In this document: positions 12,046-42,142 of the stretch, piece by piece
Numbering within the stretch: position 1 is the stretch's first letter
Layout of the letters: every line of letters starts with the position of its first letter
Assembly: GCF_003352045.1 (NCBI RefSeq)
Contig: NZ_CP025815.1
Location: 3,782,001 to 3,846,000, forward strand
Direction: 5' to 3'
Origin: Sulfitobacter sp. JL08
Lineage (GTDB): Bacteria > Pseudomonadota > Alphaproteobacteria > Rhodobacterales > Rhodobacteraceae
DNA length: 64,000 nucleotides
Translations under genes and position numbers: made by a program
The notes under the pieces: model-generated
The model's input: only the letters and a program-made list of their open reading frames with translations
What the model was told of the DNA's origin: nothing
Databases searched by the model: none

Positions 12046-12051
12046 CCCTAT

Positions 12052-12093
12052 TCAATATCGGAACCGCCGCTTCCCCGACTTGACCTAAGTCAA
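12052..12093 (-). promoter_or_regulatory. FNR/NNR-dependent promoter of nirX-cytochrome c
   Basis: TTGAC-CTAA-GTCAA (12080-12093) is a perfect FNR/NNR palindrome. On the minus strand a -10 hexamer TATTGA lies at 12057-12052. With the box centred at -41.5 the start would be near 12045, exactly the spacing expected of a class II FNR-type promoter for this -10. The gene on the other side ends here, so the nirX unit is the only sensible target. Confidence 0.8.
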
Positions 12094-12142
12094 CGGTTTT
12101 CGCGGCTTTGGCAGGCCCTGCGCCGCAACCTGCCGCCGGCAA

Positions 12143-14386: not shown

Positions 14387-14387
14387 A

Positions 14388-14846: not shown

Positions 14847-14886
14847 GGCAGCGATCCTCACATTAGGCGGTCATGCAGTTTTACAT

Positions 14887-14923
14887 TTGTACAATAATTG
14901 GCATTTTGTACATATTGTACAAT
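14887..14923. promoter_or_regulatory. TGTACA palindrome array in the iorA-TetR divergent promoter
   Basis: Three TGTACA cores lie in 37 bases: TTGTACAA (14887-14894), TTTGTACA (ending 14912) and ATTGTACAAT (14914-14923). Their centres are 19 and 9 bp apart. The region is AT-rich, unlike its surroundings, and sits between the hydroxylase genes and the TetR gene. It is the natural operator for that repressor and would control both directions. Confidence 0.65.
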
Positions 14924-14949
14924 ACGACATACAATGTAAACATCTCTTC

Positions 14950-15513: not shown

Positions 15514-15601
15514 TTCCGCCCCAGAACGGATTTGCGCGTGACGGGCCGACATGGTCTAATCACTGTCGAAACGGCGCAAGGGGCAAACAAATGGAACAGC
15601 G

Positions 15602-18915: not shown

Positions 18916-18917
18916 GA

Positions 18918-19043
18918 TCAGTCCAATCTGACATCCGCGCCGGTTGTCTGGTCTTCAGCCGAGAATCCGATTTCGTGCAGGACATAATAGGCACCTACCG
19001 CGATCACGGCTGTGGCGGCAAAGGACAAAAGCATCATTTTCAT
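18918..19043 (-). CDS. 41-residue single-helix membrane peptide in the formate dehydrogenase operon
   Basis: A short frame with a good ribosome site (GGGAG, 8 bases before ATG). It starts MKMMLLSFAATAVIAVGAYY, one clear hydrophobic helix (residues 3-21), followed by a polar acidic tail ending in DVRLD. It lies between the cytochrome b subunit of formate dehydrogenase and the response regulator, 21 bases after the former and two bases before the latter. Location and membrane nature suggest a small accessory subunit of the formate dehydrogenase or a link to the regulator. I know no characterised homologue. Confidence 0.72.
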   Translation of the reverse strand: MKMMLLSFAATAVIAVGAYYVLHEIGFSAEDQTTGADVRLD

Positions 19044-19064
19044 TGTACGTCTCCCTTTGTCCCG

Positions 19065-20267: not shown

Positions 20268-20378
20268 AAGCAGGCTCCTTGTGTCGGTTTTATTTGAATC
20301 TTTATTTATTTCAGCGCGACAGGGCGGCAAGAATGCCGCCCCACGCTTTATCTGTTTGGCACGAGGCCAGTGGGCAAA

Positions 20379-20975
20379 TCAGCCGCCCTTTTGGTCGTAG
20401 GCAGTGCCCCAACCCCAAGCGCCCGAACCAAATCCACGGGCCACGACGCGTTCACGGTAGATACCGGAGACAACATCGCCGTCGCCTGCCAAAAGCGCCT
20501 TGGTGGCACACATCTCGGCGCAGATCGGCAATTTGCCTTCTGCAATCCGGTTGCGGCCATATTTGGCGAATTCGGCTGTAGAGTGGTTTTCTTCCGGGCC
20601 ACCGGCGCAGAATGTACATTTGTCCATCTTGCCACGGGATCCGAAGTTGCCGGCCTGCGGGAACTGCGGCGCACCGAACGGGCACGCGTAGAAACAGTAT
20701 CCGCACCCGATGCACAGGTCCTTGGAATGCAGAACGACACCTTCCTCGTTCTGATAGAAGCAATCCACCGGACAAACCGCCATACAGGGCGCGTCCGAAC
20801 AGTGCATACATGCCACGGAAATCGACCGTTCACCCGGATCGCCGTCATTGATGGTGACGACCTTCCGGCGGTTGATGCCCCAAGGCACTTCATGCTCGTT
20901 CTTACACGCTGTCACACACGCATTGCATTCGATGCAGCGTTCGGCGTCGACGAGAAACTTTGCTCTTGCAGCCAT
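20379..20975 (-). CDS. fdhB: Formate dehydrogenase iron-sulfur subunit
   Basis: 198 residues with the four-cluster pattern of FdnH/FdsB-like ferredoxin subunits: CIECNACVTAC, CMHCSDAPCMAVCPVDC, CIGCGYCFYACPFG and CTFC with a later CAEMC. It carries electrons from the catalytic subunit to the cytochrome b subunit. No signal is present, so export depends on the TAT-bearing catalytic subunit. The start has a strong AAGGAGG and lies 13 bases after the catalytic subunit stop. Confidence 0.93.
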   Translation of the reverse strand: MAARAKFLVDAERCIECNACVTACKNEHEVPWGINRRKVVTINDGDPGERSISVACMHCSDAPCMAVCPVDCFYQNEEGVVLHSKDLCIGCGYCFYACPFGAPQFPQAGNFGSRGKMDKCTFCAGGPEENHSTAEFAKYGRNRIAEGKLPICAEMCATKALLAGDGDVVSGIYRERVVARGFGSGAWGWGTAYDQKGG

Positions 20976-20988
20976 TATGGTGTCCTCC

Positions 20989-23883
20989 TTATGCCGACCA
21001 GATTTTGCAAAGAGTGGCTTTCGTCTCTTGCATCTGTGTCACTGAATCATAGCCATAGGTTTGTGCGGTGTTTGTGCTTTCGCCCAATACATAAGGGTCC
21101 GCACCCGCCGGATACTTGCTCCGCCGGTCTTCGCCCTCCAGATGGCCGCCAAAGTGGAACGGCATGAACGCCACCCCTTCGCCGACACGGTTTGTGACCA
21201 TTGCCATCACCTTGACCTTGCCGCCTTCCGGGCCTTCGACCCAGACCTGAGATCCGTCACGCACACCCAGATTGTTGGCGTCACGTGTGTTGATCTCGAC
21301 GAACATGTCCTGCTGAAGCTCGGCCAACCACGGGTTGGATCGGGTTTCGTCGCCACCACCCTCGTATTCCACAAGACGACCAGACGTCAGGATCATTGGA
21401 TAATCCTTGGAAAAGTCGTTCTTCTGGATCGAGGCATACATGGTCGGAAGACGATAGAACTTCCGGTCCTCGTATGTCGGGTAGTCCGCGACCAGATCGC
21501 GCCGGTTTGTATACAGCGGTTCGCGATGTACCGGGATCGGATCGGGGAAGGTCCAGACCACCGCCCGCGCCTTGGCATTGCCGAATGGCGCACATTCATG
21601 TGCGATCGCGACCCTTTGGATGCCACCTGACAGGTCGGTTTTCCAGTTTGTATCCGGTCCGGCCACCGCATCAATCGCGGCACGCTCTTCATCGGTCAAC
21701 TCGCTGTCCCAACCCAGATCCATCAGCATCTGCATGGTGAATTCGGGGTAACCGTCCTGAATATCCGAATCCTTGCTGTAGACACCTTCGGCCAACAGGT
21801 TGTCCCCGTCACGTTCCACGCCAAACCGGGCACGGAATGTCAGTCCACCTTCGGACACGCGCTTGGACATGTCATAAAGGTTGGGCGTTCCGGGATGGTT
21901 CATTTCGGGAGTGCCCCAGCACGGCCATGGCATACCATAATAATCACCATCTGCCGGACCACCCACCGCCTGCAGCGTCGTTCTGTCGAACGTATGCTGG
22001 TTGGCCATGTGCAGTTTCATCCGCTCCGGGCTTTGACCGGTATAGCCGACTGTCCACATACCGCTGTTGAATTCGCGGGTGATGCTTTCGACATTCGGGG
22101 TTTCCGGATCGTCCATTTCGATATTGCGGAACAGACGGTCGGCAAAGCCGAATTTGTTGGCGAACTTGGCAATGATCACCTCGTCCGGGACGCTTTCGAA
22201 CAGAGGTTCAATCACGCGGTCACGCCACTGGATCGATCTGTTCGAGGCGGTCACCGAACCGCGGGTTTCAAACTGCGTACAGGCCGGCAACAGGTAAACG
22301 CCGTCTGTCCGGTCATGAAGAATGGCGGAAACGGTGGGGAACGGATCGATCACGACCAGCATGTCCAGCTTTTCCATCGCCGTCTTCATTTCCTTCATAC
22401 GCGTCTGGCTGTTGGGCGCGTGGCCCCACAACACCATGGCGCGCACCTTGGCGGGCTGATCCATATTGGCCGGGTCTTCCAACACACCGTCGATCCAGCG
22501 CGACACCGGAATACCGGTTTCGTTCATCAACGGTTTGTCTTTGCCATCCGCACCCTGGATCGTGTCGAACTGCGCCTTGAGCCAGTCCATATCCTCGCCC
22601 CAGACACGGCCCCAATGGGCCCATGCACCGGCAGACAGGCCATAATAGCCCGGCAGGGTATGGGACAGAACACCCAGATCAGTGGCACCTTGCACGTTGT
22701 CGTGGCCGCGGAAGATGTTTGTTCCGCCACCCGATGTGCCCATGTTGCCCAGCGCAAGCTGAAGCACACAATAGGCGCGTGTGTTGTTGTTGCCGCTGGT
22801 GTGCTGCGTACCGCCCATACACCAGACAACAGTGCCGGGACGGTTGTTGACCATCGTACGGGCGACGCGGCGCAACTGTTCGCCGGGTGCACCTGTCACG
22901 CGCTCGACCTCTTCCGGTGTCCATTTGGCGACTTCGGTCTTGATCTGGTCCATTCCCCACACGCGGGTGCGGATGAATTCTTTGTCTTCCCAGCCATTCT
23001 CAAAGATATGCCACAGAATACCCCAGACCAGCGCAACGTCTGTACCTGGGCGGAACCGCACGTATTCATCAGCGTGGGCCGCCGTGCGGGTAAACCGCGG
23101 GTCGCACACGATCAAAGGCGCGTTGTTCTGTTCCTTGGCTTTCAGGATATGCAGCAGAGACACGGGATGCGCCTCGGCCGGGTTTCCGCCAATGATGAAA
23201 ATCGCCTTGGAATTGTGCATGTCGTTGTAGCTGTTGGTCATGGCGCCGTAGCCCCATGTGTTTGCAACACCCGCAACCGTGGTCGAGTGACAAATCCGCG
23301 CTTGGTGGTCCACGTTGTTCGTGCCCCAGTAGCCGGCGAATTTGCGGAACAGGTAGGCCTGTTCGTTGTTATGCTTGGCCGATCCCAGCCAGTACACTGA
23401 ATCCGGACCGCTTTCTTCGCGGATGTTCATCATGCCGTCGCCGATCTCGTCGATCGCCTGTTCCCAGCTGATGCGTTTCCATTCACCGCCTTCGCGCTTC
23501 ATGGGATATTTCAGGCGGCGTTCACCATGGGCGTGCTCGCGAACCGCGGCCCCCTTGGCGCAATGCGCCCCCAGATTGAAAGGGCTGTCCCAGCCGGGTT
23601 CCTGACCCGTCCAGACACCATTGTCGACTTCGGCTACAACCGTGCAACCGACCGAACAGTGGGTACAAACCGTTTTGACAGTTTCAACTGCTGTGTTTGC
23701 GGCAGACTGCGCATTCGCTGCCGTCACTGTGCCGCCCGTTGCGGCAATTGCGGTCAGGCCACCAATGGCCAATCCCGAACCGCGCAAAAACGCACGGCGG
23801 TCAACCGATGTTTCAGACATCGTCGACAGGATACTTGTCCGCTGGGAGCGTCGCGCAACCCCGTTGGTCTTTTTCCTAAGCAT
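20989..23883 (-). CDS. fdhA: Formate dehydrogenase catalytic subunit (Mo/W-bis-MGD, cysteine type)
   Basis: 964-residue periplasmic enzyme oxidising formate to CO2. A twin-arginine motif (RRAFLRGSG, 29-37) lies after an unusually basic 28-residue leader; the start follows TGGAGG. Cys73, 76, 80 and 108 bind the N-terminal [4Fe-4S] cluster. The metal ligand is Cys198, followed by His199, in HQARICHS, so this is a cysteine and not a selenocysteine enzyme and the gene has no in-frame TGA. Molybdenum and tungsten both occur in this family and cannot be told apart by sequence reading. Genes for chaperones and DUF3305/DUF3306 proteins lie directly upstream. Confidence 0.95.
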   Translation of the reverse strand: MLRKKTNGVARRSQRTSILSTMSETSVDRRAFLRGSGLAIGGLTAIAATGGTVTAANAQSAANTAVETVKTVCTHCSVGCTVVAEVDNGVWTGQEPGWDSPFNLGAHCAKGAAVREHAHGERRLKYPMKREGGEWKRISWEQAIDEIGDGMMNIREESGPDSVYWLGSAKHNNEQAYLFRKFAGYWGTNNVDHQARICHSTTVAGVANTWGYGAMTNSYNDMHNSKAIFIIGGNPAEAHPVSLLHILKAKEQNNAPLIVCDPRFTRTAAHADEYVRFRPGTDVALVWGILWHIFENGWEDKEFIRTRVWGMDQIKTEVAKWTPEEVERVTGAPGEQLRRVARTMVNNRPGTVVWCMGGTQHTSGNNNTRAYCVLQLALGNMGTSGGGTNIFRGHDNVQGATDLGVLSHTLPGYYGLSAGAWAHWGRVWGEDMDWLKAQFDTIQGADGKDKPLMNETGIPVSRWIDGVLEDPANMDQPAKVRAMVLWGHAPNSQTRMKEMKTAMEKLDMLVVIDPFPTVSAILHDRTDGVYLLPACTQFETRGSVTASNRSIQWRDRVIEPLFESVPDEVIIAKFANKFGFADRLFRNIEMDDPETPNVESITREFNSGMWTVGYTGQSPERMKLHMANQHTFDRTTLQAVGGPADGDYYGMPWPCWGTPEMNHPGTPNLYDMSKRVSEGGLTFRARFGVERDGDNLLAEGVYSKDSDIQDGYPEFTMQMLMDLGWDSELTDEERAAIDAVAGPDTNWKTDLSGGIQRVAIAHECAPFGNAKARAVVWTFPDPIPVHREPLYTNRRDLVADYPTYEDRKFYRLPTMYASIQKNDFSKDYPMILTSGRLVEYEGGGDETRSNPWLAELQQDMFVEINTRDANNLGVRDGSQVWVEGPEGGKVKVMAMVTNRVGEGVAFMPFHFGGHLEGEDRRSKYPAGADPYVLGESTNTAQTYGYDSVTQMQETKATLCKIWSA

Positions 23884-23961
23884 AGTTTTTCCTCCATAAG
23901 GAACTCCTCTGACAGTCGGGCCTCACGCAACCAGTCGTCAGCGGATATTAAGGACGTCCGA

Positions 23962-24153
23962 TCAGAACCGGGCGCTGTCGAGATAGGCGCGGGTATGCGC
24001 AGTGTCCTGCATCTTGTCAGATGAAAGATCGACCGGCTGCGCTTGTGCATCCGATCCGCTGACGGCAACCGCAGCAACGGCTGCCGGTGCGGCTGTGCCA
24101 GCCAGTTTCAGAAAATCGCGGCGGCTGGTGCCGTCGGCTTTTTCCTTTTTCAT
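23962..24153 (-). CDS. Formate dehydrogenase region TAT-target peptide
   Basis: 63 residues with a twin-arginine signal (SRRDFLKLAG) and a short tail after the AQA cleavage region. It belongs to the small 'formate dehydrogenase region TAT target' family always found beside such enzymes. Its function is not known; a small periplasmic subunit or chaperone of the complex has been suggested. It has a good ribosome site (GGGGAG) and sits between the torD-like gene and fdhA on the same strand. Confidence 0.85.
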   Translation of the reverse strand: MKKEKADGTSRRDFLKLAGTAAPAAVAAVAVSGSDAQAQPVDLSSDKMQDTAHTRAYLDSARF

Positions 24154-24207
24154 GGGAATTCTCCCCTTCTGTGTTGTGGCGGGGCCCCCCGCCGGTCTGC
24201 GCGGGAT

Positions 24208-24816
24208 TTATCCCGCAATCATCCGGAACGCCTCGCGTTCGATATCCATGAACTGTTTGCCGACCGAGCCGACAGACGCATAGAACACCGACGCTTGCGC
24301 GGCTTCCAAATCCGAAAAGAAATGTGTGGCCCAAGGGCCGATATGTTTGTTGAAGAACAGCTTTTGGTCGGCAAGGTCCGCCGATCGGCCGAACCGGCCA
24401 ACGATCAGTCCGCCCATCATCTCCATCAGCGATGCGATGTTGTCCTCCGGCTCGAACACGTTCTGGGCGCGCGTGACACCGCGTGCCGCCATATCCTTGC
24501 GCAATGTTGCCAGCGGTTTTTCATTCAGAAAGCCCGTCAGGTAATAGCTTGCATAGGGCAGCAGTTCACCGCGCCCCAAACCGATGAACAGGGCATTGAA
24601 TTCTGAAAGCACCGCGTTGGGCTTGGTCACTTTTGCGACGCGCGCCAGTGTTGAAATGGCTTCCCCCATCGCGCTGTCGTCGCCTGACAGGCCGGCACAT
24701 TGATCCAGCAGGGTTTGATCGGGCGGCCCCGACAGCAACAGCCCCAGAAAATTGTACAGGTCCGCGCGCAACCGGTCTTCTGCACTGACTGACGTGGTAT
24801 CTGCCAAAGCACTCAT
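24208..24816 (-). CDS. TorD-family molybdoenzyme maturation chaperone
   Basis: 202-residue all-helical protein of the TorD/DmsD family. It has the ALFIGLGRGELLPYASYYLTG region, close to the conserved (E/L)F-x-P-Y-x-S motif. Such chaperones bind the TAT signal of the catalytic subunit until the cofactor is inserted, so the client should be the adjacent formate dehydrogenase. Its start overlaps the DUF3306 stop by four bases. Confidence 0.87.
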   Translation of the reverse strand: MSALADTTSVSAEDRLRADLYNFLGLLLSGPPDQTLLDQCAGLSGDDSAMGEAISTLARVAKVTKPNAVLSEFNALFIGLGRGELLPYASYYLTGFLNEKPLATLRKDMAARGVTRAQNVFEPEDNIASLMEMMGGLIVGRFGRSADLADQKLFFNKHIGPWATHFFSDLEAAQASVFYASVGSVGKQFMDIEREAFRMIAG

Positions 24817-25475
24817 GCTGCGGCCTCCGATCCGTTTGGTTTTGAATATTGAAACCGCATCCGGCGGCGGGGCGCTTCGATGTGATCAGACAGGTCGTCT
24901 TGCGCTAACGGTTCGGGATCTTTTGATTGTTCGGCGGTTGTGACCTGCGCGTCTTGCTCTTGCAGGGCCATATCCTGGTCGGGCGCGCCCTGCGGTTCGC
25001 CCTCAAGCTCGGGTTCTTCGGAAACGGCTTCTGCCATCTCGGCCTTTGCCAGTTTCTCTTCGGCCTGACGCGCCATTTCCTGAACATGGCTTAGCATGCC
25101 CTTGCCAACCTGATAGGCCGTTTGCAGGTTTTCGACGACCATCGCACTATCGGTAAAATCCTGACCGTAATCCACAAGCCCATCAACATTGGCCAGCACC
25201 GGGTTCAGCTTCCACAACTGGCGCAGGGCACGACGGCGCAGGCGATCCGGCACCGCCTTTGACATAAAACCCCGGACATCATCACCCAGCTTCAGGCTAT
25301 CGGGGTCCGGCAACCCGAACTCTTCCAGCAGTTCTTCATCACTCTTGGCCTCTTGCACCGCCTGTTCTTCCGCGGCAGTGCGCGCCAGCGTCTCTTGCTC
25401 TTCCGCCAGCGCCTCGGCCTGAACGCGCGCCTTGCGGTCCGACCAGAACCCGGATGAACCTGTGCGACCAGTCAA
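24813..25475 (-). CDS. DUF3306-family protein of formate dehydrogenase clusters
   Basis: 220 residues. The N-terminal half has the recognisable segment FGLPDPDSLKLGDDV followed by RRRALRQLWKLNPVLANVDGLVDYGQDFTD, typical of DUF3306. The rest is acidic and Gln/Glu-rich, likely disordered, and ends in an arginine-rich patch (APRRRMRFQ). There are no membrane segments. Family members accompany formate dehydrogenases, but no reaction is known. It is coupled by four-base overlaps to both DUF3305 and torD-like genes. Confidence 0.82.
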   Translation of the reverse strand: MTGRTGSSGFWSDRKARVQAEALAEEQETLARTAAEEQAVQEAKSDEELLEEFGLPDPDSLKLGDDVRGFMSKAVPDRLRRRALRQLWKLNPVLANVDGLVDYGQDFTDSAMVVENLQTAYQVGKGMLSHVQEMARQAEEKLAKAEMAEAVSEEPELEGEPQGAPDQDMALQEQDAQVTTAEQSKDPEPLAQDDLSDHIEAPRRRMRFQYSKPNGSEAAA

Positions 25476-31769: not shown

Positions 31770-33167
31770 ATGCTTGATCCGCTTTTCGTAAACGCGCTTG
31801 AACAGATTTGCGGGTCCGGCGCCATTCTGACCGGCAACGCTCTTGCCGGTCAGGATTTCGGATTTCACCCTGAAAATCTTGGCGCGACATGCGCCGTGCG
31901 CCCGCAATCAACGGAACAGGTTGCCGATGTCTTGAAGCTGTGTAACCGGTTCGGGGTTTCCGCCGTGCCCCAGGGCGGATTGACGGGTCTTGCAGGTGGC
32001 GCTGTTTCAAATGCGGGACAGATAATTATCAGCAGCGCAAGACTGCCGACGGAGATTGAAATAGATCCGGTGAACCGGCTTGCGCTGGTTACAGCGGGCA
32101 CCACGTTGGCAGCGCTTGATCATGCAGCGCGTAAACACGGATTGTGCGCCGGCATTGACATCGGCGCGCGTGATACGGCAACCATCGGCGGCATGATCGC
32201 CACCAATGCTGGCGGGGGCGAGGCATTTCGCAACGGCATCATGCGCAACCGTGTTCTCGGGCTTGAGGCGGTTTCGGCGACCGGCATCATCATGTCCGAC
32301 CTGAAAAGGGTCACCAAGGCCAATGAAGGCATCGATATAAAACAGGTATTTATCGGATCCGAAGGCACATTGGGCTTCATCACCCGCGCCGTTTTGCGGC
32401 TGGCACCAGCGCCCGGCATTTGCTGCACCTTTATCGCGTCATTTTCCGACACGATAACCGCGCTGAACATGTTTCACGCCCTGAACGCCATGCCATCTGC
32501 CCGGCTGTTGCGGGCCGAGATCATGTGGCGCGATTATGCGGTTGAAACGGCCAAAGCACTGAACCTGCAAGCCGTTTTACCTGCCCCGGATCGCTCTGTG
32601 CATGTTGCCTTTGAAATGGATCCGTTGAACGGGTCTGTTGATGCGTTTTTGGATCCTCTGGCCGAGCAACTGGAAACCGCCGGATGTGAAGACGTGATCG
32701 TGGCCCAGAACGAACGGGAACGAAACAACATCTGGATGGTGCGCGAAGACAGCTGGGCATTGGAAAAGATGTTTTCGCATAACTTCTGGTATGATGTTTC
32801 ACTGCCCCACAGCATGCTTGACGGCTATGTCACGCGCACAAAAGACGCGCTGCAAAAGTTGCACCCCTCGATCCGAACATTTGTGATGGGGCATCTGGGC
32901 GATGGCAACCTGCATCTGACAATCTCGGGCACTGACGAAATCGGCGAACTGCACGATGCTATTTCAGAGATCGTTTATCAGGGTCTTGCCGCTTCGGGCG
33001 CATCCTTTTCCGCAGAACACGGCATCGGAACAGACAAACGGTCTGATCTGGGCCGCTACGGCGATGCAGGAAAACTCCAGATCATGCGGATGATAAAATC
33101 TGCGCTGGACCCGAACGGGATCATGAATCCCGGCAAGGTCATCACAATCGACATCGCTGAAACCTGA
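31770..33167 (+). CDS. FAD-linked oxidase (GlcD/D-2-hydroxyacid dehydrogenase type)
   Basis: 465 residues with the PCMH-type FAD domain (VPQGGLTGLAGGAVSNAGQI and IGGMIATNAGG) and a C-terminal substrate domain with the conserved GHLGDGNLHL and AEHGIGTDKR. These enzymes oxidise D-2-hydroxyacids such as D-lactate, D-2-hydroxyglutarate or glycolate. It lies 100 bases before a GntR gene and in the same direction as the catabolic operon that follows. It may feed the same pathway or be independent. Confidence 0.87.
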   Translation: MLDPLFVNALEQICGSGAILTGNALAGQDFGFHPENLGATCAVRPQSTEQVADVLKLCNRFGVSAVPQGGLTGLAGGAVSNAGQIIISSARLPTEIEIDPVNRLALVTAGTTLAALDHAARKHGLCAGIDIGARDTATIGGMIATNAGGGEAFRNGIMRNRVLGLEAVSATGIIMSDLKRVTKANEGIDIKQVFIGSEGTLGFITRAVLRLAPAPGICCTFIASFSDTITALNMFHALNAMPSARLLRAEIMWRDYAVETAKALNLQAVLPAPDRSVHVAFEMDPLNGSVDAFLDPLAEQLETAGCEDVIVAQNERERNNIWMVREDSWALEKMFSHNFWYDVSLPHSMLDGYVTRTKDALQKLHPSIRTFVMGHLGDGNLHLTISGTDEIGELHDAISEIVYQGLAASGASFSAEHGIGTDKRSDLGRYGDAGKLQIMRMIKSALDPNGIMNPGKVITIDIAET

Positions 33168-33192
33168 ACCGATATCAGGCCGCAGGAATGGC

Positions 33193-33232
33193 TTGACTCG
33201 GTCACAGGTCACGCCCTATTAAAATGTATACA
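33193..33232 (+). promoter_or_regulatory. Promoter and possible GntR operator
   Basis: A -35 TTGACT (33193-33198) and -10 TATTAA (33217-33222) are 18 bp apart. TGTATACA (33225-33232) is an 8-bp palindrome at the start site, of the kind bound by FadR-like GntR proteins (around TATAC). The gene following is itself a FadR-like regulator, so self-control is plausible. Confidence 0.55.
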
Positions 33233-33267
33233 ATATGTCCACAATTTGTAGAATCAGGAACTGACCC

Positions 33268-33972
33268 TTGTCGAAATCCCGAAAACTGGATTGTCTCAAC
33301 GATCTGAAGCTTAGAATCCTGACACTGGATTTGGGCCCCGGCTCTGATCTGGACGAAGTCACTCTTGCTGATCACTACGGAATTTCGCGCACGCCCCTGC
33401 GCGAGATAGTGCAGCGTCTTGCCGGTGACGGGTATCTTGAACTGGCCGAAAACCGCGGCGCCAAGGTGGCATCGATGGACCTGAACACAATGCGCACGTT
33501 CTTTCAGACGGCGCCGCTGATCTATGCCAACATTGCCCGTCTGGCCGCCGAAAACCGCCAACCCGTTCAGATCGAAGACCTGAAGAAAACCCAGACCCAG
33601 TTTGCGACAGCAACAAAAAATGCAAACGCCGCGCAAGCTGCGATGTTGAACCACCGCTTTCACGCCATCATCGGCGAAATGGCCCATAACCCGTATCTCG
33701 TGGCCAGTCTAAGCCGGATGCTGGTCGATCATACCCGTCTAAGCCAGACATTCTATCGCCCGGAATCAGACACGGAACAGGCTTTGGTAAAGAAGGCCAG
33801 CGATCAGCATGACGCGATGATTTCCGCAATCGAAGCGCGTGAACCCGCGCTGGCCATCGACCTGACATTGCAACACTGGGATCTGTCAAAAGATCGCCTG
33901 GAACGTTTCGTCACCCCCGACCCTTTGCCACTGGATGTGATTTCCCTCAAGGAGCGCCGCAATGCAGTTTGA
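33268..33972 (+). CDS. FadR-subfamily GntR transcriptional regulator
   Basis: 234 residues from a TTG start preceded by a weak AGGAA. A winged-helix domain (ADHYGISRTPLREIVQRLAGDGYLELAENRG) is followed by an FCD ligand domain with metal-binding positions of the type D/N-x3-H...H...H (HRFHAIIG, DQHDAMI and LTLQHWDLSKDRL). The FCD group usually senses organic acids or sugars. It is the first gene of the operon it most likely controls and overlaps the DapA-like gene. Confidence 0.87.
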   Translation: MSKSRKLDCLNDLKLRILTLDLGPGSDLDEVTLADHYGISRTPLREIVQRLAGDGYLELAENRGAKVASMDLNTMRTFFQTAPLIYANIARLAAENRQPVQIEDLKKTQTQFATATKNANAAQAAMLNHRFHAIIGEMAHNPYLVASLSRMLVDHTRLSQTFYRPESDTEQALVKKASDQHDAMISAIEAREPALAIDLTLQHWDLSKDRLERFVTPDPLPLDVISLKERRNAV

Positions 33973-34867
33973 AGGCATCTACACCCCCCTGATCACACCT
34001 TATCATGATGATTTCACCGTCAACGAAGATGCGCTGGCCGATACCGTAGAACACCTGATCGGGGCCGGTGTGAACGGCATCATCGTGGCGGGTACAACCG
34101 GCGAATATTATGCGCAAACCGGCGAAGAACGTGTCTGGATGATGAAACGCGCCACTGATCTGATCAAGGGGCGGGTTCCTGTCATCATCGGCACCGGCGC
34201 CATCCGCACCGAAGACAGCATAGAATTTGCGCTGGCGGCAAAGGCCCACAAGGCGAATGCCATTCTGGTTGCCACGCCCCCTTACGCGTACCCGACAGGG
34301 CGTGAGATTGCCCTTCATGCGCTTGCAATTGACCGGGCGGCCAACCTGCCTGTGATGCTTTACAATTATCCCGGCCGCATGTCTGTCAACATGGATGAAG
34401 ACACGCTGAACCGGCTGGGACGGTCCCCCAATTTTTGCGCGATCAAGGAAAGCAGCGGTGACATCAACCGCCTGCACATGCTGGCGCGGGATTATCCGCA
34501 TATCGCATTGTCCTGCGGCATGGATGATCAGGCACTGGAGTTTTTCGCCTGGGGCGCACGCAGCTGGGTTTGCGCCGGATCAAATTTCGCCCCCGAGGCA
34601 CATATCGCGCTTTATCGTGCCTGCGCCGTCGAGGGTGATTTTACCAAGGGGCGCGCGATCATGTCAGCCATGCTACCGCTGATGCGGGTGCTGGAACAGG
34701 GCGGCAAGTTCATCCAGTGCATCAAAAACGGGCTGACCCTGCGTGGCATAGATGCCGGACCGCCGCGCAAACCGCTGCAACCGCTGAACAAAGATGACAA
34801 ACGCGAACTGGCCGAGGTCATTCGCACCATGAACACAACCATTTCCCAGATCACGGGAGAGTCATAA
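33962..34867 (+). CDS. DapA/NAL-superfamily class I aldolase or dehydratase
   Basis: 301 residues with the full catalytic set of the pyruvate-type Schiff-base family: GTTGE (45-49), Tyr134 in LYNYPGR and the Schiff-base Lys162 in AIKESSGD. Family members include dihydrodipicolinate synthase, N-acetylneuraminate lyase, ketodeoxy-sugar aldolases and hydroxyproline-pathway deaminases. Context argues for catabolism: the adjacent genes are an aldehyde dehydrogenase and a redox enzyme and there is no lysine gene. A deaminase or aldolase forming a semialdehyde for the next enzyme is a plausible role. Confidence 0.87.
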   Translation: MQFEGIYTPLITPYHDDFTVNEDALADTVEHLIGAGVNGIIVAGTTGEYYAQTGEERVWMMKRATDLIKGRVPVIIGTGAIRTEDSIEFALAAKAHKANAILVATPPYAYPTGREIALHALAIDRAANLPVMLYNYPGRMSVNMDEDTLNRLGRSPNFCAIKESSGDINRLHMLARDYPHIALSCGMDDQALEFFAWGARSWVCAGSNFAPEAHIALYRACAVEGDFTKGRAIMSAMLPLMRVLEQGGKFIQCIKNGLTLRGIDAGPPRKPLQPLNKDDKRELAEVIRTMNTTISQITGES

Positions 34868-36345
34868 TGACCGATTTGCTGACCCACGCAGAATACCAAG
34901 CCATCGCAGGTTCTCTGACCCTGCCGCGCGCGCCGTTTATCGACGGCAAATTCCACAAGGGCGCGGGGCCGATGATGGCGACAATCAACCCGGCGACAGG
35001 CGCGGAACTGGCACAGATCAGCACCGCGAACGCCGCAGATGTTGATCTTTCCGTATCAAAGGCACGCGATGCGTTCGATCAGGGGCGTTGGGCCAAAATC
35101 CACCCGTCCGAACGAAAAGACACACTGATCCGTCTGTGCAAACTGATCACCCGAAACCGGCGCGAACTGGCCGTGATGGAAAGCCTCGACAGTGGCAAAC
35201 CGATCCGCGATTGCGAATCGATCGATCTGCCCGAAACCATCAACTGCATCAAATGGCACGCCGAAGCGATCGACAAGATCTATGACCAGACGGGGCCGTC
35301 CGGCGACGATGCGATTTCCCTGATCGTGCGCGAACCCGTTGGCGTTGTAGCCGCCATACTGCCATGGAATTTCCCGCTTTTGATGATGGCATGGAAAATC
35401 GGGCCCGCACTGGCCGCCGGGAATTCGGTGATCGTGAAACCCGCGGAACAGACCACCCTGACCGCGCTGCGGCTGGCCGAACTGGCCTACGAAGCCGGTG
35501 TGCCGAACGGTGTCTTGCAGGTTTTGCCCGGGGACGGGCCGTCTGTGGGTGAACCGCTGGGGCGGCACGGCGGGGTGGATATGGTCAGCTTTACCGGATC
35601 AACAGAAACCGGACGGCGGTTTTTGCGGTATTCGGCCGACAGCAATCTGAAAAAGGTGGTTCTGGAATGCGGTGGCAAAAACCCCGCTATCGTGCTGGCA
35701 GATGCCGAAAACCTTGATCATGTGGCGCAGCATGTGGTGAATGCCGCGTTCTGGAACATGGGTGAAAACTGTTCCGCCGCCTCGCGCCTGATTGTCCACA
35801 AGAATGTGAAATCCGCACTGATGGACCGGATCAAGGCGCGCATGCGGGATTGGAAAACCGGCGATCCGCTGGACCCCGCCAACCATCTGGGCGCGCTGGT
35901 TGATGCGGAACACTGCGCGAAAGTGCGAAGCTATATGGACAAATCGGATGCTGGCAAGGGGCCATATGTTCAGCCCGTTGTTTATGAAGTACCCAAATCC
36001 GACAAACGGACGCGCGAAGAAATCTTTGGCCCCGTTCTGGCTGTGATCGAAGTTTCAAGCACCGATGAAGCCGTCGCAATTGCCAATGATACCGAATACG
36101 GGCTGGCGGCTTCGCTGTTCACGGCCAGCGCGCGTCAGGCGATCAGGGTGGCCCGAGACATCCGCGCCGGAACCGTAACCGTGAACTGTTACGGAGAAGG
36201 CGATGCAGCAACGCCTTTTGGCGGGTACAAGCAATCCGGCTTTGGCGGGCGGGACAATGGCGTTCACGCTCACGACCAGTACACCGAACTGAAAACCATC
36301 TGGATCGATCTGACCGACCCGTCAGACGGGGACAACGTGGGATGA
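34867..36345 (+). CDS. Aldehyde dehydrogenase, PuuC/betaine-aldehyde type
   Basis: 492 residues; catalytic Cys302 in GENCSAA and general base Glu267 in LECGGKNP; NAD-binding motif in FTGSTETG. It belongs to the group acting on omega-amino or guanidino aldehydes such as gamma-glutamyl-aminobutyraldehyde. The start follows GGAGAG and overlaps the preceding stop by one base; its stop overlaps the next start by four. It probably oxidises the semialdehyde made by the DapA-like enzyme to an acid. Confidence 0.9.
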   Translation: MTDLLTHAEYQAIAGSLTLPRAPFIDGKFHKGAGPMMATINPATGAELAQISTANAADVDLSVSKARDAFDQGRWAKIHPSERKDTLIRLCKLITRNRRELAVMESLDSGKPIRDCESIDLPETINCIKWHAEAIDKIYDQTGPSGDDAISLIVREPVGVVAAILPWNFPLLMMAWKIGPALAAGNSVIVKPAEQTTLTALRLAELAYEAGVPNGVLQVLPGDGPSVGEPLGRHGGVDMVSFTGSTETGRRFLRYSADSNLKKVVLECGGKNPAIVLADAENLDHVAQHVVNAAFWNMGENCSAASRLIVHKNVKSALMDRIKARMRDWKTGDPLDPANHLGALVDAEHCAKVRSYMDKSDAGKGPYVQPVVYEVPKSDKRTREEIFGPVLAVIEVSSTDEAVAIANDTEYGLAASLFTASARQAIRVARDIRAGTVTVNCYGEGDAATPFGGYKQSGFGGRDNGVHAHDQYTELKTIWIDLTDPSDGDNVG

Positions 36346-37103
36346 GCGCCATCGGCTTTATCGGTACCGGCCACATCGCGGCCCCGATGGTGCGGTTCCT
36401 GTCGGACCACGGGCATGTGATTTCAGTGTCAGATCGCAACGCGGATGTCGCGGCGGACCTGAACAAAAGCCACGGGGTCAGGATTGCGGACAATCAAAGC
36501 GTGGTGGATGCCTCTGACATCGTGTTTCTTTGCGTACGGCCCCATCTGGCCGAAGACATACTGACCGCATTGAATTTCAGACAGGACCAGCAGATCATTT
36601 CGGTAATGGCAGGCGTTGCGCTGGAACGTCTTCAATCCCTTTGTTCGCCTGCCGCTGATTTCAGCCTGACCATCCCGTTCGGATTTCTGGAAGCCGGGGG
36701 CTGCCCCCTGCCTGCGTACCCGTCCAAAACTCTGCTGGAACACTTGTTTTCACCGGAAAATCCGGTGATCGAGCTGGCCTCGGAAAGCGCGCTGAACCAG
36801 CACTTCGCGATCTGCACGCTGCTGCCCGGCCTGCTTGACCTGATGTCGACCGGCGCAGGATGGTTGGGCGATGCCACCGGCGATCAGGACGCCGCGGCGC
36901 TTTACACAACTCAGCTGATCCGCGGTTTTCTGGCCGCGCTGCCACCATCAGATGCAGGTCAACTGTCGCGCGAACGCGATGCACTGGCCACCGATGGAAC
37001 CATCAGTCTGCAAATGACGACCGCACTGCGCGACGGCGGGTGCCATGACACATTGAAACAAGCACTTGATGCGATCAACGCACGTCTGGAGACAAAATCA
37101 TGA
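36342..37103 (+). CDS. ProC-like NAD(P)-dependent reductase or dehydrogenase
   Basis: 253 residues with an N-terminal Rossmann motif GFIGTGHIAAPM (residues 5-16) and DIVFLCVRPHLAEDIL. It is like pyrroline-5-carboxylate reductase or F420-dependent oxidoreductase families. The C-terminal helical dimerisation part is diverged, so the substrate is unclear: an imine, or a cyclic amine as in ProC, is suggested by fold only. It overlaps genes on both sides by four bases. Confidence 0.78.
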   Translation: MSAIGFIGTGHIAAPMVRFLSDHGHVISVSDRNADVAADLNKSHGVRIADNQSVVDASDIVFLCVRPHLAEDILTALNFRQDQQIISVMAGVALERLQSLCSPAADFSLTIPFGFLEAGGCPLPAYPSKTLLEHLFSPENPVIELASESALNQHFAICTLLPGLLDLMSTGAGWLGDATGDQDAAALYTTQLIRGFLAALPPSDAGQLSRERDALATDGTISLQMTTALRDGGCHDTLKQALDAINARLETKS

Positions 37104-38653
37104 GCGTGGATGCTGTAGGTACGATCCGGCGCGGACGTGGCGCGCGCAAGGCCACCCGCCAGCAACGCGATGTGGCGATGCTGCCCGCGCTTGAACGCGG
37201 TTTGCCCCTGACAGAACCGATGGACGCCGAACAGATCGCGCGTATCGATGCGGCTTCGATGGATATTCTGGAAGAGGTTGGCGTGGTGTTCCGCGATCCC
37301 GTTGCGATTGCGGACTGGCGCAAGGCAGGGGCCGATGTCCGCGATGGTGACAGGGTGCATCTGGATCGTGCTCTGGTGCGCGATCTGATTTCGACGATCC
37401 CGGAAAGCTTTACCTACCACGCGCGCAATCCGGCGCATAATCTGCCCTTCGGCAAGAACCACAGCATTTTTGTACCGATGACGGGTGCGCCCTATCTGCG
37501 CGATCTTGATAACGTCAGGCGCAATCCGACACTGGATGATCTGGCCAATTTTCACAAGCTTAGCCACATGCTGCCGGCGCTGCATTCATCTGCGCATCAC
37601 ATTGTGGAACCCTACGATCATCCGATCAGCCAGCGCCATCTGCGCATCACCTATTCGTCGATGAAACATTCCGACAAGACGTTCATGGGTATGACCACCA
37701 GCCCCAAGAACGCCGAAGATGTGCTGGATATGTGCGCCATCCTGTTCGGTGAGGAGTTTCTGGAAATGCATCCAGTTGTCACCGGCAATTGCAACGGAAA
37801 TTCCCCGCTTGTCTGGGATGAAACCATGCTGGGCGCCATGCGGGCGTTCAGCCGCCGCAATCAGCCGGTTCTGTGTTCGCCTTTCGTGTTGGGCGGGGCA
37901 AACACGCCCGCATCCGTAGCCCCCACCGTCGCGCAGTTGAATGCCGAAGCGCTAAGCGCGCTGGCCTATACGCAGGTCATCCGCAAGGGCGCGCCTGCGA
38001 TCTATGGCCATTACCTCAGCACGGTCAGCATGAAATCGGGCGCACCGATGGCGGGCACCCCGGAAATCAGCCTGATGAATTTCATGATCGGCCAGATGGC
38101 GCGGTATTATGGCGTTCCGTGGCGCACGTCGAACACATTGGGCGGGGCCAAGACATTCGACGCCCAAGCCGGATATGAAAGCGCGACAACCCTGATGGCC
38201 GTGCTGATGGCAGGGGCCAATTACATCTGGCACTCTGCCGGCTGGAACGAGGCCGGAATGCACTGTTCGATGGCCAAATTTGTGGTTGATGCCGAACAAT
38301 GCGCGATGGGCTACCGCATGGCCCAGGGCATCCGCTGGGATGATTTTGACGAAGCCTTGCGCGCAGTGCGTGATGTCGGACCGGGCGGGCATTATCTGGG
38401 CCATCCCCACACGCTGGAAAATTTTCAACGCGCGTTTTTCATGCCCGAATTGTTTGACAACAATTCAATCGAACAATGGCAGGCAGAAGGGTCTCACGAC
38501 ATCAACGCAAGGGCAAACGCCCATGCCCGCACCATGTTAAAGGAATACGAGGAACCAAGACTGGATCCCGCTGTCAACGAGGCATTGCTGGATTACATCG
38601 CTCGGCGAGAGCGCGAAATCCCTGCCGCTGACGCCCTTAATCAAAGCTATTGA
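37100..38653 (+). CDS. MttB-superfamily (trimethylamine methyltransferase-like) protein, non-pyrrolysine
   Basis: 517 residues across the MttB fold; the frame runs through with no in-frame amber codon, so pyrrolysine is absent. Such non-Pyl homologues include glycine betaine, proline betaine, carnitine and gamma-butyrobetaine methyltransferases, which pass methyl groups to a corrinoid protein. Typical segments are GNCNGNSPLVWDETMLG, ASVAPTVAQLNAEAL, and HSAGWNEAGMHCSMAKFV. No corrinoid protein gene is in the window. The operon contains oxidases and an aldehyde dehydrogenase, so a quaternary amine substrate is the natural guess. Confidence 0.85.
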   Translation: MSVDAVGTIRRGRGARKATRQQRDVAMLPALERGLPLTEPMDAEQIARIDAASMDILEEVGVVFRDPVAIADWRKAGADVRDGDRVHLDRALVRDLISTIPESFTYHARNPAHNLPFGKNHSIFVPMTGAPYLRDLDNVRRNPTLDDLANFHKLSHMLPALHSSAHHIVEPYDHPISQRHLRITYSSMKHSDKTFMGMTTSPKNAEDVLDMCAILFGEEFLEMHPVVTGNCNGNSPLVWDETMLGAMRAFSRRNQPVLCSPFVLGGANTPASVAPTVAQLNAEALSALAYTQVIRKGAPAIYGHYLSTVSMKSGAPMAGTPEISLMNFMIGQMARYYGVPWRTSNTLGGAKTFDAQAGYESATTLMAVLMAGANYIWHSAGWNEAGMHCSMAKFVVDAEQCAMGYRMAQGIRWDDFDEALRAVRDVGPGGHYLGHPHTLENFQRAFFMPELFDNNSIEQWQAEGSHDINARANAHARTMLKEYEEPRLDPAVNEALLDYIARREREIPAADALNQSY

Positions 38654-38659
38654 TCCGCC

Positions 38660-39991
38660 ATGAAGGTGCGCGCGCTTCCCGTTGATCCAGGCCCTGCTGC
38701 ATGGAACAGGCTATTGCCTGCACCGCCGCCCGTAGAGGAACAAGTCGGGGCGCAAACCGCTGAGTGGCTGATCATCGGTGCCGGTTTTGCCGGATTGGCG
38801 GCGGCGCGGCGGCTGACCCAGTTGCGCCCGAAAGACACCATCATCATTCTGGACGCGACGCGCATCGGCGAAGGCCCGGCGGGGCGCAATTCTGGTTTCA
38901 TGATCGATCTGCCACATGATCTGTCCTCCAGCGATTATGGCGGCGCACTCGACGCCGACCGCGCCCAGACCATTGCCAACCGTCATGCCATTGCCTTTGC
39001 CGCAGAGATGGCCCGCGATTTCGACCTGTCGCAAGAAGCTTTTGTGCAATGCGGCAAGATCAATGCAGCGGCAACAGATGCGGGGCATCGGCACAATCTG
39101 GATTATGCCCGCCACCTGACCAGCATGGGCGAAGCGCACGAATTGCGCAGCGCCGCGCAGATGCAGGCCATGACAGGAACGGATTATTACCAAAGCGGGT
39201 TGTTCACCCCGCATTCCGCGATGATCCAGCCGGCTATGTTTGTGCGGGGTGTTGCAAAGGGGCTGCGTTCAAACCGGGTTTCAATTTACGAAAACAGCCC
39301 GGTCGTGGAACTGGCCAGACCGTCCGGTTGGGTCGCCACCACACCCAAGGGCACGGTCACGGCACCCAACGTCATTCTGGCAGTGAACGGGCATCTGAAC
39401 AGTTTCGGATTCTATCGGAACCGGCTGATGCACGTCTTTACATATGCCTCAATGACCAAGGCGATGACACCCGAACAGATTGTCCGTTTGGGTGGCGATC
39501 CGGTATGGGGGGTCACGCCTGCCGATCCGATGGGCACGACAGTGCGCAGGATTTCCGGCACAGGCGGCGACAGGATCGTGATCCGCAACCGGTTTACCTA
39601 TGATCCGTCCATGACGGTGCCAGACAGGCGGATCACCGATGTCGGCCATACACATGATCGTGCCTTTCGCGCGCGGTTTCCGATGCTGTCCGATGTCGAA
39701 ATGGAATACCGCTGGGGCGGGCGTTTGTGCATCAGCCGCAACAACGTTCAGGTGATTGGCGAACTGGAACCCGGCCTGTTTTCAGCCTGCTGCCAGAACG
39801 GGCTGGGCACCGCCAAAGGCACTTTGGCCGGATTGCTGGCGGCAGAACTGGCCACCGGCCACAAGTCGGCGCAACTTGATGCCGCAGCAAAGGCGGACCA
39901 GCCAACGCGTTTGCCGCCAAAGCCGCTGGCCTATCTGGGCGCGAACGCGTTCATGCGCTTTCAGGAACGAAAAGCGGGCAAGGAACTATAA
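38660..39991 (+). CDS. DAO-family FAD-dependent oxidoreductase
   Basis: 443 residues. The FAD dinucleotide motif is IIGAGFAGLAAARR (38-51), followed by GPAGRNSGF, typical of D-amino-acid, sarcosine and gamma-glutamylputrescine (PuuB-like) oxidases. No signal peptide. It begins six bases after the MttB-like stop. A demethylation or amine-oxidation step on the product of the methyltransferase would fit. Specific substrate cannot be read out. Confidence 0.86.
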   Translation: MKVRALPVDPGPAAWNRLLPAPPPVEEQVGAQTAEWLIIGAGFAGLAAARRLTQLRPKDTIIILDATRIGEGPAGRNSGFMIDLPHDLSSSDYGGALDADRAQTIANRHAIAFAAEMARDFDLSQEAFVQCGKINAAATDAGHRHNLDYARHLTSMGEAHELRSAAQMQAMTGTDYYQSGLFTPHSAMIQPAMFVRGVAKGLRSNRVSIYENSPVVELARPSGWVATTPKGTVTAPNVILAVNGHLNSFGFYRNRLMHVFTYASMTKAMTPEQIVRLGGDPVWGVTPADPMGTTVRRISGTGGDRIVIRNRFTYDPSMTVPDRRITDVGHTHDRAFRARFPMLSDVEMEYRWGGRLCISRNNVQVIGELEPGLFSACCQNGLGTAKGTLAGLLAAELATGHKSAQLDAAAKADQPTRLPPKPLAYLGANAFMRFQERKAGKEL

Positions 39992-40006: not shown

Positions 40007-41944
40007 CTACTGCGCCAGCTCTGCCCGCATCAGGCTCAGATCTATGTTGTCGGGGTTGGCAGCCAATGCCGCATCCGCCGTTTCAATTGCAGCGTCGATA
40101 TTTCCAAGGGCCGCATGTATCCGGACCATCATCATCCACGCCTGCACCATCTGCGGGTCCATGCGCACCGCTTCGCCAAAGGCCGAAAGCGCCGAATCCA
40201 TACGCCGTGTGGTCAGACCGATCCCAGCCAAAACCAGTTGGGTTTCAGGAAAATCCGCCTTGGCCTGCAATGTCTGCTGCCATTCCCCCATCGCCTGTCC
40301 CAGACTTTCCGTCACGCGTTCCGGCATGCGCACGATGTTCAGGTTCAAAAACTCGCGTGCTGCGGCCATCCGCACCAGTTTCACGGGATCTTCCAGCATA
40401 TTCATGAACAGGCCGGGCCGTTCGGTTTCGGGCGCACCCCGCTGCACCGGAATGGCCGCGGCGCGAACCATGGGATCGGGGTCTTGCAACGCAGGTTGCA
40501 GGCGCGCCGCGATTTGCGGATCCGTCACCGCCGCCAGAACCTCAAGCGCGGTGGCGCGGACAATTGCGGGCAGGGCCTGATACTCGACAATTTCGATCAG
40601 CCCCGTGACCTGACCGCGGGGATCGGACCGGGCGCGCGCCATCGCCTGTGAAAAATGCGGGCCGCGCTTGATGCTGTCGGGATACCAGGTTTCAACCTTT
40701 TCCGCCGCCCAGGACGCCGATTCGTTTGTATGGCAATCGTTGCAGGCATTGGGGGCCAATGTGATAACCGAAAGATCCGGACGCGGAATACGGAAAGAGT
40801 GATCACGCCGCCCGTCTATACCCATATAATCGCGCTCGATCATGTGGCAGCTTTTGCATTGCGCGCCTTCGCTGCCCTGTTCGTGAAAATGATGTGAGGG
40901 ATCATCATAATCTGCCGCGACAAGCGTCGGAAAACGCGGGTTGGCCGCCGGTGAATGGCATTGCGCGCAAACCGCATTCCCTTCGGCCTTAAGCTCTGCC
41001 GTATGCGCATTGTGGCAATCTGTGCAGGCCACGCCTTTTGCGTACATTTTGGATTGCAGGAAAGACCCGTAAACATAAACCTCTTCAAGGATCTGCCCGT
41101 CCGGATGATACAACCCATCGCGCAGCGGGCTAAGGCGATACGCATCATGGAACGGCGTGCCGGGCAACGGGTTCCCGTCCGTGAACGGTTCGCGGCGGGC
41201 ATGGCAACTGGCACATTGCTGTATTTCGGCCTCGGGCCCGGCATCGAAATCCATGCTGAATCCTGTTTCGCCAACCTTGGCCCAGCGCGCCGGATCATAG
41301 GTATCATTTGCAACGGCCCAGTCGCGATGTGCCTCTCCGGGGCCGTGACAGGCCTCGCACCCGACACCGATTTCAGATTGGGTGCTGGAATAGGTTCTGG
41401 CGATCGGATCGTAATTCTTTTCAAACGCCGTCGCATGACATTCCGCGCAGCGCGCATTCCAGTTCTTGTAGGGTCCGGTCCAGTGCAAACCGTCGCTCGC
41501 CGGCAAATCCTGTTCTGGATACAGGTGATACCATTCCTGCTTTTCCACATCCCAGACCACATCAAAGGATTGCACCGTACCGGGTTCGGTTTCGATCAGG
41601 TATTGTTGCAGCGGCGCGATCCCGGCCACCCCCGCCAGGGGATATTTTGTGATCGCACCATCCGGCCCGTCCGATTCGATGAAATAGCTGTCGCCGTCGA
41701 ACGAAAACCGCGTCAGCACACCTCTGTGATAAAAATCGGCATCATCAAAATCGCCCAGAACATTGCCTTCGGTGGGGGGTGTCCACGCCAGCGCATGATG
41801 TGACCCGTCCCATTGTTCCGCCTCGTCAAGATGACAATCGCGGCAGGTTTCGGACCCGATATAGGCAGGTACAAAAGGGGTTTGCGCCGATGCCGGCCCA
41901 CCTGAAAGGCACAGCAAAAGACCAATCAGCAAACCGGCCACCAT
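40007..41944 (-). CDS. Octaheme cytochrome c with HEAT and TPR repeats
   Basis: 645 residues from the ATG that begins MVAGLLIGLLLCLSGGPASA, a perfect signal peptide; an ATG at 42133 would add an unlikely 63-residue tail. Eight CxxCH motifs are at residues 34, 166, 196, 244, 307, 326, 363 and 401: CRDCH, CAECH, CEACH, CASCH, CTDCH, CAQCH, CKSCH, CNDCH. The heme part resembles cytochrome c554/NrfA-like multihemes. HEAT-like repeats (about 425-530) and TPR repeats (to the end) follow. Such proteins are periplasmic redox or electron-relay proteins of mostly unknown role. A Crp/Fnr gene precedes it on the same strand. Confidence 0.87.
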   Translation of the reverse strand: MVAGLLIGLLLCLSGGPASAQTPFVPAYIGSETCRDCHLDEAEQWDGSHHALAWTPPTEGNVLGDFDDADFYHRGVLTRFSFDGDSYFIESDGPDGAITKYPLAGVAGIAPLQQYLIETEPGTVQSFDVVWDVEKQEWYHLYPEQDLPASDGLHWTGPYKNWNARCAECHATAFEKNYDPIARTYSSTQSEIGVGCEACHGPGEAHRDWAVANDTYDPARWAKVGETGFSMDFDAGPEAEIQQCASCHARREPFTDGNPLPGTPFHDAYRLSPLRDGLYHPDGQILEEVYVYGSFLQSKMYAKGVACTDCHNAHTAELKAEGNAVCAQCHSPAANPRFPTLVAADYDDPSHHFHEQGSEGAQCKSCHMIERDYMGIDGRRDHSFRIPRPDLSVITLAPNACNDCHTNESASWAAEKVETWYPDSIKRGPHFSQAMARARSDPRGQVTGLIEIVEYQALPAIVRATALEVLAAVTDPQIAARLQPALQDPDPMVRAAAIPVQRGAPETERPGLFMNMLEDPVKLVRMAAAREFLNLNIVRMPERVTESLGQAMGEWQQTLQAKADFPETQLVLAGIGLTTRRMDSALSAFGEAVRMDPQMVQAWMMMVRIHAALGNIDAAIETADAALAANPDNIDLSLMRAELAQ

Positions 41945-42142
41945 CCGGGACACGGGCTGGCCCGACCGGAAGATCGCATTTTGGGAAAAGCAACTTTTTA
42001 TCAAGGATCTGACCAACGTGATAGGCGACAACCTGTAAGAGACTGGCACGGCACCCGCGGCAAGTCTAGCGCAGTGGCCGCCCCTATTTGTCGCGCCTGC
42101 GTGATAGGGCAAAGAAGCATTCGAACCCGTCACGGCGATGGA

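Follow-up and report, generated by a model that had tools for sequence, protein, structure and literature searches.

We analyzed a 64,000-nucleotide stretch of the Sulfitobacter sp. JL08 genome (the window; bases 3782001-3846000 of a 4.32-Mb genome that is one contig) and found an operon, gntR-dapA-aldh-proC-mttB-dao, at 33268-39991, with all six genes on the + strand. We propose, with a probability of roughly 70%, that the substrate of this operon is 4-hydroxyproline betaine, which algae and plants use as an osmolyte: under GntR control, MttB would pass a methyl group to a shared corrinoid protein, MtgC, and the DAO, DapA-like and aldehyde dehydrogenase (ALDH) proteins would carry the ring through to alpha-ketoglutarate. 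Gene order, orthology, genomic context, an operator-like site and the presence of a corrinoid machinery were observed; all of these reactions are inferred.

Families were assigned with Pfam (FAD_binding_4/FAD-oxidase_C, GntR plus FCD, DHDPS, Aldedh, F420_oxidored, MTTB and DAO). The positions, strand and families that a first-pass annotation of the window had given for seven genes, namely the operon and a flavin adenine dinucleotide (FAD)-linked oxidase upstream, were all borne out by the gene calls and Pfam. The genes were also rightly described as packed with overlaps, as the junctions from gntR to dao are −11, −1, −4, −4 and +6 bases:

31770-33167, + strand: GlcD-like FAD-linked oxidase, an upstream neighbor judged to lie outside the operon
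33225-33232, no strand assigned: palindromic operator-like site TGTATACA in the 100-bp gap between the end of the FAD-linked oxidase gene and gntR, a candidate GntR site
33268-33972, + strand: GntR/FCD-family regulator with a TTG start (Pfam GntR and FCD)
33962-34867, + strand: DapA/DHDPS-family protein, proposed pyrroline-4-hydroxy-2-carboxylate deaminase (Pfam DHDPS)
34867-36345, + strand: ALDH, proposed alpha-ketoglutaric semialdehyde (KGSA) dehydrogenase (Pfam Aldedh)
36342-37103, + strand: ProC-like NAD(P)-binding protein, an optional member, proposed cyclic-imine reductase (F420_oxidored, NAD_binding_2)
37100-38653, + strand: non-pyrrolysine MttB-superfamily protein, proposed (hydroxy)proline-betaine:corrinoid methyltransferase (PF06253)
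38660-39991, + strand: DAO-family FAD oxidoreductase, proposed cis-4-hydroxy-D-proline oxidase (Pfam DAO)

In the proposed pathway, the operon would be governed by its own GntR regulator, and MttB would move one N-methyl group from 4-hydroxyproline betaine to MtgC, whose gene lies some 1.6 Mb off and whose corrinoid would accept the methyl in the Co(I) state. MtgD, a pterin methyltransferase, would hand the methyl group to tetrahydrofolate for C1 oxidation; alternatively, MtgC may give it to homocysteine, yielding methionine. RamA would reactivate the corrinoid. Once the second methyl group is lost, the DAO protein would oxidize cis-4-hydroxy-D-proline to pyrroline-4-hydroxy-2-carboxylate, the DapA-like protein would deaminate and open this ring to KGSA, and the ALDH would convert KGSA to alpha-ketoglutarate. 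The ProC-like protein would probably reduce a side imine, pyrroline-2-carboxylate arising from any proline betaine, back to proline.

The first-pass annotation had seen no corrinoid partner for MttB and regarded the methyl acceptor as a puzzle. We ran the genome search for corrinoid (MttC-like) proteins that it had suggested and found a single PF02607 protein, located not at the operon but about 1.6 Mb off, so the partner is missing from the locus and present in the genome. Profile counts across the genome were seven for PF06253, one for PF02607, one for RACo_C_ter (RamA-type), two for PF00809 and four for PF02574, and the corrinoid, MtgD-like and RamA-like genes are all unlinked to the operon. 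The corrinoid gene (C1:2245828-2246526, 232 codons) encodes B12-binding and B12-binding_2 domains with a D-x-H-x-x-G motif, read by eye, and its product reaches 189 of the 370 bits that one MtgC model requires and 175 of the 310 bits of the other. One of the two PF00809 proteins is MtgD-like and passes PRK07535, and one PF02574 gene lies about 1.4 kb from the corrinoid gene. The puzzle probably dissolves because seven MttB paralogs accompany a single unlinked corrinoid protein, as in Ruegeria, where a protein of this kind serves an MttB-type system in trans. Mutants there show MtgC and MtgD to work in glycine-betaine demethylation as well as in methionine synthesis, and PF06253 genes number up to seven per genome (PMC12478193; cited here, like PMC8604678, PMC4113996 and PMC13390433, from excerpts). 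Similarly, three MttB proteins of E. limosum use one common corrinoid protein (PMC8604678). By this analogy, the corrinoid protein is most likely shared in trans rather than absent.

The corrinoid protein was present in 39/39 operon-bearing genomes (drawn from 40 asked for among 80), in one copy each and at 86-93% identity, a count that covers operon-bearing genomes alone. Because the protein is probably near-universal in the Rhodobacterales group searched, this presence is a risk passed rather than a discriminating test. A stronger link is given by Aminobacter aminovorans plasmid pAA02 (4803-12993), where MttB, a B12-binding protein, HpbD, a flavin mononucleotide (FMN) oxidoreductase and ProC stand in one cluster and the B12-binding protein is 82% identical to the corrinoid protein of the window genome. 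In this cluster, what is split in the window genome occurs naturally at a single locus.

To define the conserved set, we scanned named genome contigs for MttB relatives, took the best 80 of at least 583 (81-89% identity to the window MttB) and searched their loci with the window proteins and their neighbors, each at its own identity cut-off. Upstream coverage of at least 4.5 kb was available for 64 loci, downstream coverage of at least 8 kb for 63, and both for 55. DapA and ALDH were each found in 61 of the 64 upstream-covered loci, GntR in 57 and ProC in 15. Downstream, DAO was present in 59 of 63, two short-chain dehydrogenase/reductase (SDR) genes in 27 each, HpbD in 8, a cytochrome P450 in 9 and the FMN oxidoreductase in 2; over all 80 loci, the last three numbered 9, 10 and 2. 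Five plasmid records with an orthologous MttB (75-86%) also had DapA, ALDH and DAO nearby in 5/5, GntR beside DapA in three, a mandelate-racemase-family gene in three (two of these with two SDRs), a BCCT transporter in one and a ProVWX-type transporter in one. The gene set around MttB is thus no accident, and the operon is kept in many marine Rhodobacterales.

HpbD bears directly on the substrate. In at least 20 of 40 HpbD-bearing plasmid records, an MttB of the window clade or of its Aminobacter sister lies no more than 2.7 kb away (18 from listed positions, covering 30 of 197 records in one listing, one in pieces and one from Aminobacter), although seven of these records are C. sphaeroides and hence not independent events. 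Two sets of PDB entries that we take to be HpbD structures, 4e8g/4izg/4j1o (671 bits) and 2pmq/4h2h (525 bits), match the racemase-family protein of Cereibacter sphaeroides 2.4.1, and a 77%-identical homolog of this protein on a Paracoccus pantotrophus plasmid is annotated hpbD, 4-hydroxyproline betaine 2-epimerase. In three Paracoccus records, a Rieske oxygenase rather than MttB lies up to 6 kb from HpbD; conversely, no Rieske demethylase was found among the operon genes, where MttB takes its place. In the HpbD records of Shinella, P. yeei and Phaeobacter, neither MttB nor a Rieske oxygenase was among the genes listed within 9 kb, the gene tables being incomplete. On S. meliloti AK57 pSymA (9909-15585), ALDH, DAO, MttB and HpbD match in pieces and are missing from the gene table; this cluster looks broken or poorly sequenced.

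The DapA, ALDH and DAO triad also occurs without MttB, in two Paracoccus species, Agrobacterium, Gemmobacter and Peteryoungia, with identities to the window proteins of 61-66%, 60-66% and 46-54%, respectively. An annotated 4-hydroxyproline epimerase and a betaine/proline ABC transporter adjoin it in P. alcaliphilus and Agrobacterium, and a proline-racemase-family gene adjoins it in Peteryoungia; no such racemase was listed within 9 kb of the Gemmobacter and P. aminovorans triads. On Pseudosulfitobacter plasmid pSMR1-3 (7572-12120), we noticed DapA-ALDH-ProC-DAO without MttB behind a TRAP transporter, perhaps an unmethylated version of the pathway.

At the protein level, the DapA-like protein scores 188.5 bits against the dapA equivalog model, under the 206.15 cut-off; its Tyr134, Arg139 and Lys162 are unchanged in 13/13 aligned sequences, and its next-best match within its own genome has 31% identity. 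The ALDH has its catalytic motifs (Glu267 in LECGGK and Cys302 in GENC) and is 64% and 60% identical to the ALDHs of two triads adjoining 4-hydroxyproline epimerase. For the DAO protein, the next-best match in its own genome has 25% identity, and no PDB sequence matched at E ≤ 1e-5.

The first-pass annotation had suggested that MttB demethylates a proline or hydroxyproline betaine and that the other enzymes oxidize and open the ring. Gene context supports this well, since HpbD adjoins the orthologous MttB, and 4-hydroxyproline epimerase and betaine transporters adjoin the orthologous triad. Hydroxyproline betaine is favored over proline betaine as the substrate because enzymes of the DAAO, DHDPS and ALDH families make up the 4-hydroxyproline route (PMC4113996).

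If the operon instead served proline betaine (or N-methylproline), MttB would yield N-methylproline, the DAO protein would act on D-proline and the ProC-like protein would reduce pyrroline-2-carboxylate to L-proline. Betaine/proline ABC transporters neighbor the genes in several relatives, in keeping with such a role, and ProC-type genes stand within the HpbD clusters of P. pantotrophus and Aminobacter. These are a different ProC-type gene with a P5CR_dimer domain, which the window protein, having only N-domain matches (F420_oxidored and NAD_binding_2), does not match. HpbD reportedly racemizes proline betaine too (Kumar et al. 2014). In addition, MtpB of E. limosum is a proline-betaine MttB (PMC8604678). 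We nevertheless consider this substrate unlikely: by the route in PMC4113996, proline needs neither DapA nor ALDH, yet these two are near-invariant in the orthologous loci whereas ProC is found in 15/64, and the triad occurs with 4-hydroxyproline epimerase.

We then considered the MttB protein itself. It matches PF06253 with 721 bits over positions 2-500 of 500, and MtgB (9yce/2qne) aligns with it over about 470 residues. The reading frame has no internal stop, so there is no in-frame UAG, and Leu347 occupies the Pyl334 position, as in MtgB, with Leu in 86/86 aligned clade sequences including that of the window. By these features, we assign it to the non-pyrrolysine MttB superfamily. In a FastTree analysis of 22 sequences, the window clade and the HpbD-linked Aminobacter enzyme (53% identity to the window MttB) separated from the six other MttB paralogs of the genome (27-44%) with support of 0.998. 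Trp377 is kept in 85/86 clade sequences and in the Aminobacter enzyme, and in 0/6 of these paralogs; at this position, counted on the alignment, MtgB has Leu and trimethylamine MttB has Tyr364. A role for Trp377 in the substrate pocket is our guess.

These results bear on whether MttB could be a general glycine-betaine demethylase (MtgB) that by chance lies in an unrelated hydroxyproline operon. Two Ruegeria PF06253 proteins, which may or may not belong to the window clade, rise on glycine betaine (PMC12478193), and MtyB has low activity with several quaternary amines (PMC8604678), which would be compatible with such a function. But besides the grouping with the Aminobacter enzyme, apart from its own paralogs, DapA and ALDH accompany MttB in 61/64 loci and DAO does so in 59/63, and DAO-GCV_T fusion proteins adjoin three of the six other paralogs and not the window MttB. 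This alternative is therefore very unlikely. We gave the least weight of all to a different N-methyl compound of like shape, cyclic or hydroxylated, such as hydroxypipecolate betaine, with the triad acting on a homologous ring: the L-pipecolate oxidase model is among the weak DAO matches (110.7 vs a cut-off of 600 bits) and the window genome lacks HpbD, but HpbD and 4-hydroxyproline epimerase beside the orthologous genes indicate a five-membered ring. Homarine was taken up because PMC13390433 cites a 2026 paper on it. It was set aside because its product, N-methylglutamate, retains the methyl group and would leave no call for MttB.

Several observations weigh against the hydroxyproline-betaine pathway. 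No HpbD ortholog was found in the window genome (best match 37%), and 71/80 relatives' loci, some on short contigs, had no HpbD match. The single proline-racemase-family protein of the genome is unlinked to the operon and passes no model, with trans-3-hydroxyproline dehydratase scoring best (372 vs 550 bits) and 4-hydroxyproline epimerase at 247 vs 376 bits. The operon contains no second N-demethylase, and no operon protein passed an NCBIfam cut-off among the matches listed. The ALDH scores closer to PuuC/BADH models than to KGSA dehydrogenase models. In 12 of the 20 loci fetched (the best 20 of 55 genomes with a match, among 295 searched), the ProC-like gene was not part of the operon, and inspection by eye of the neighbors of these 12 lone genes revealed no partner in common. 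Three of the 55 loci with both flanks covered (L091, L094 and L112) have MttB without DapA. One of them, L091, is Roseovarius nubinhibens ISM (R. nubinhibens), a species listed among growers on 4-hydroxyproline (PMC4113996). Finally, in a stretch of S. meliloti pSymB, GntR, DapA and ALDH matched at 25-34% identity, and DAO had no match. This stretch is presumably the classic hyp cluster; as it carries no annotation, these low identities say little.

As for the missing epimerase, the first of the two catalytic positions in the proline-racemase-family protein is Ser and the other is Cys, as read by eye. The same Ser/Cys pair is reported for the 4-hydroxyproline epimerase B9JQV3 (PMC4113996). We regard it as a candidate C2 epimerase, which may or may not epimerize 4-hydroxyproline.

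Candidates for the second N-demethylase, the P450 and FMN oxidoreductase genes, are found in relatives only. The P450 joins the two SDR genes, and often HpbD, in 10/80 operons (L064, L067, L070, L071, L083, L088, L093, L106, L134 and L140), and oxidative removal of the second methyl group is a possible role for it. A quite different solution would be that the second methyl group stays on the nitrogen: with the N-methyl ring as the direct substrate of the DAO and DapA-like proteins, methylamine rather than ammonia would leave at ring opening. We hold this to be improbable. It would account for the 25 of the 55 loci with both flanks covered that lack all of ProC, HpbD, the SDR pair, P450 and FMN oxidoreductase, two of which (L094 and L112) also lack DapA. 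If true, a single osmolyte would supply the bacterial methylamine pathway as well as the methyl pool of B12 and tetrahydrofolate.

The first-pass annotation had also placed the FAD-linked oxidase in the pathway. We did not find it, at ≥50% identity, in any of the 80 orthologous loci, and the operator-like site intervenes between it and gntR; it is probably a mere neighbor. Since the oxidase is kept in 0/80 loci and a conserved TGTATACA precedes gntR, the transcription unit most likely begins at gntR. Of 62 sequences (the window and 61 loci), 46 have TGTATACA 5' of gntR, compared with a mean of 0.14/62 after mononucleotide shuffling, and the consensus around it shows half-sites on either side. 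AWTGTATACAWT has its sole exact genome-wide match at the site in the gap before gntR. We propose TGTATACA with its half-sites, judged by sequence, as a candidate operator for the GntR/FCD protein. The conserved site makes induction of the operon easy to probe. The window holds two copies of TGTATACA (0.08 expected), the second of which (21508) falls within the gene of a molybdopterin oxidoreductase and was put down to chance. A one-mismatch operator about 0.5 kb 5' of the RamA-like gene (C1:2137923) was rejected as weak, as 6 such sites compared with 3 in the reversed control. Promoter and terminator scans yielded no better than chance.

Elsewhere in the window, the gene right after the operon (40007-42133, − strand) encodes a 708-aa protein that matches multihaem cytochrome c, TPR and HEAT families. 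A cluster at 17557-25475 (− strand) has a 964-aa molybdopterin oxidoreductase that reads like a formate dehydrogenase; by eye, genes for a sigma-54-type regulator, a 4Fe-4S protein and a subunit resembling cytochrome b are also present. This cluster could oxidize formate derived from methyl groups.

Taken together, our analysis names a candidate substrate for one of the many orphan MttB genes in marine Rhodobacterales. Their counterpart for glycine betaine, mtgB, shows high expression throughout the ocean (PMC12478193). We predict that hydroxyproline-betaine turnover in marine Rhodobacterales would be B12-dependent and tied to methionine synthesis, whereas the Paracoccus cluster suggests an oxygenase and formaldehyde. 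The later steps of the pathway are already known. Among the papers listed, our literature search found no report of a B12-dependent entry to hydroxyproline-betaine breakdown in aerobic marine bacteria, although Kumar et al. 2014 could already mention it.

The hydroxyproline-betaine (hpb) pathway is said to have been described in Paracoccus and relatives by Zhao et al. 2013 and Kumar et al. 2014, both of which PMC4113996 cites. Our operon resembles it in the end route, with the DAAO, DHDPS and ALDH families leading to alpha-ketoglutarate, and in the HpbD of some orthologous operons. In P. pantotrophus, however, hpbD adjoins a Rieske oxygenase and a formaldehyde dehydrogenase, while here MttB stands instead and the genome has no HpbD. 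The DAAO, DHDPS and ALDH triad is likewise shared with 4HypE catabolism (PMC4113996), which begins with the amino acid free of methyl groups; the main text of that paper nowhere uses the word "methyltransferase". In E. limosum, MtpB, MtcB and MtyB are also non-pyrrolysine MttBs that act on different quaternary amines and use a common MtqC from a separate cluster, but this organism is an acetogen and hydroxyproline ring-opening enzymes are not mentioned in the excerpts (PMC8604678). The MtgBCD system of Ruegeria pomeroyi shares with the window genome a single unlinked corrinoid protein, MtgD-like and RamA-like proteins and several PF06253 proteins; there, glycine betaine was the substrate tested, and other substrates are suggested for the other PF06253 proteins (PMC12478193). 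The operon in the window points to a second substrate for such a corrinoid system.

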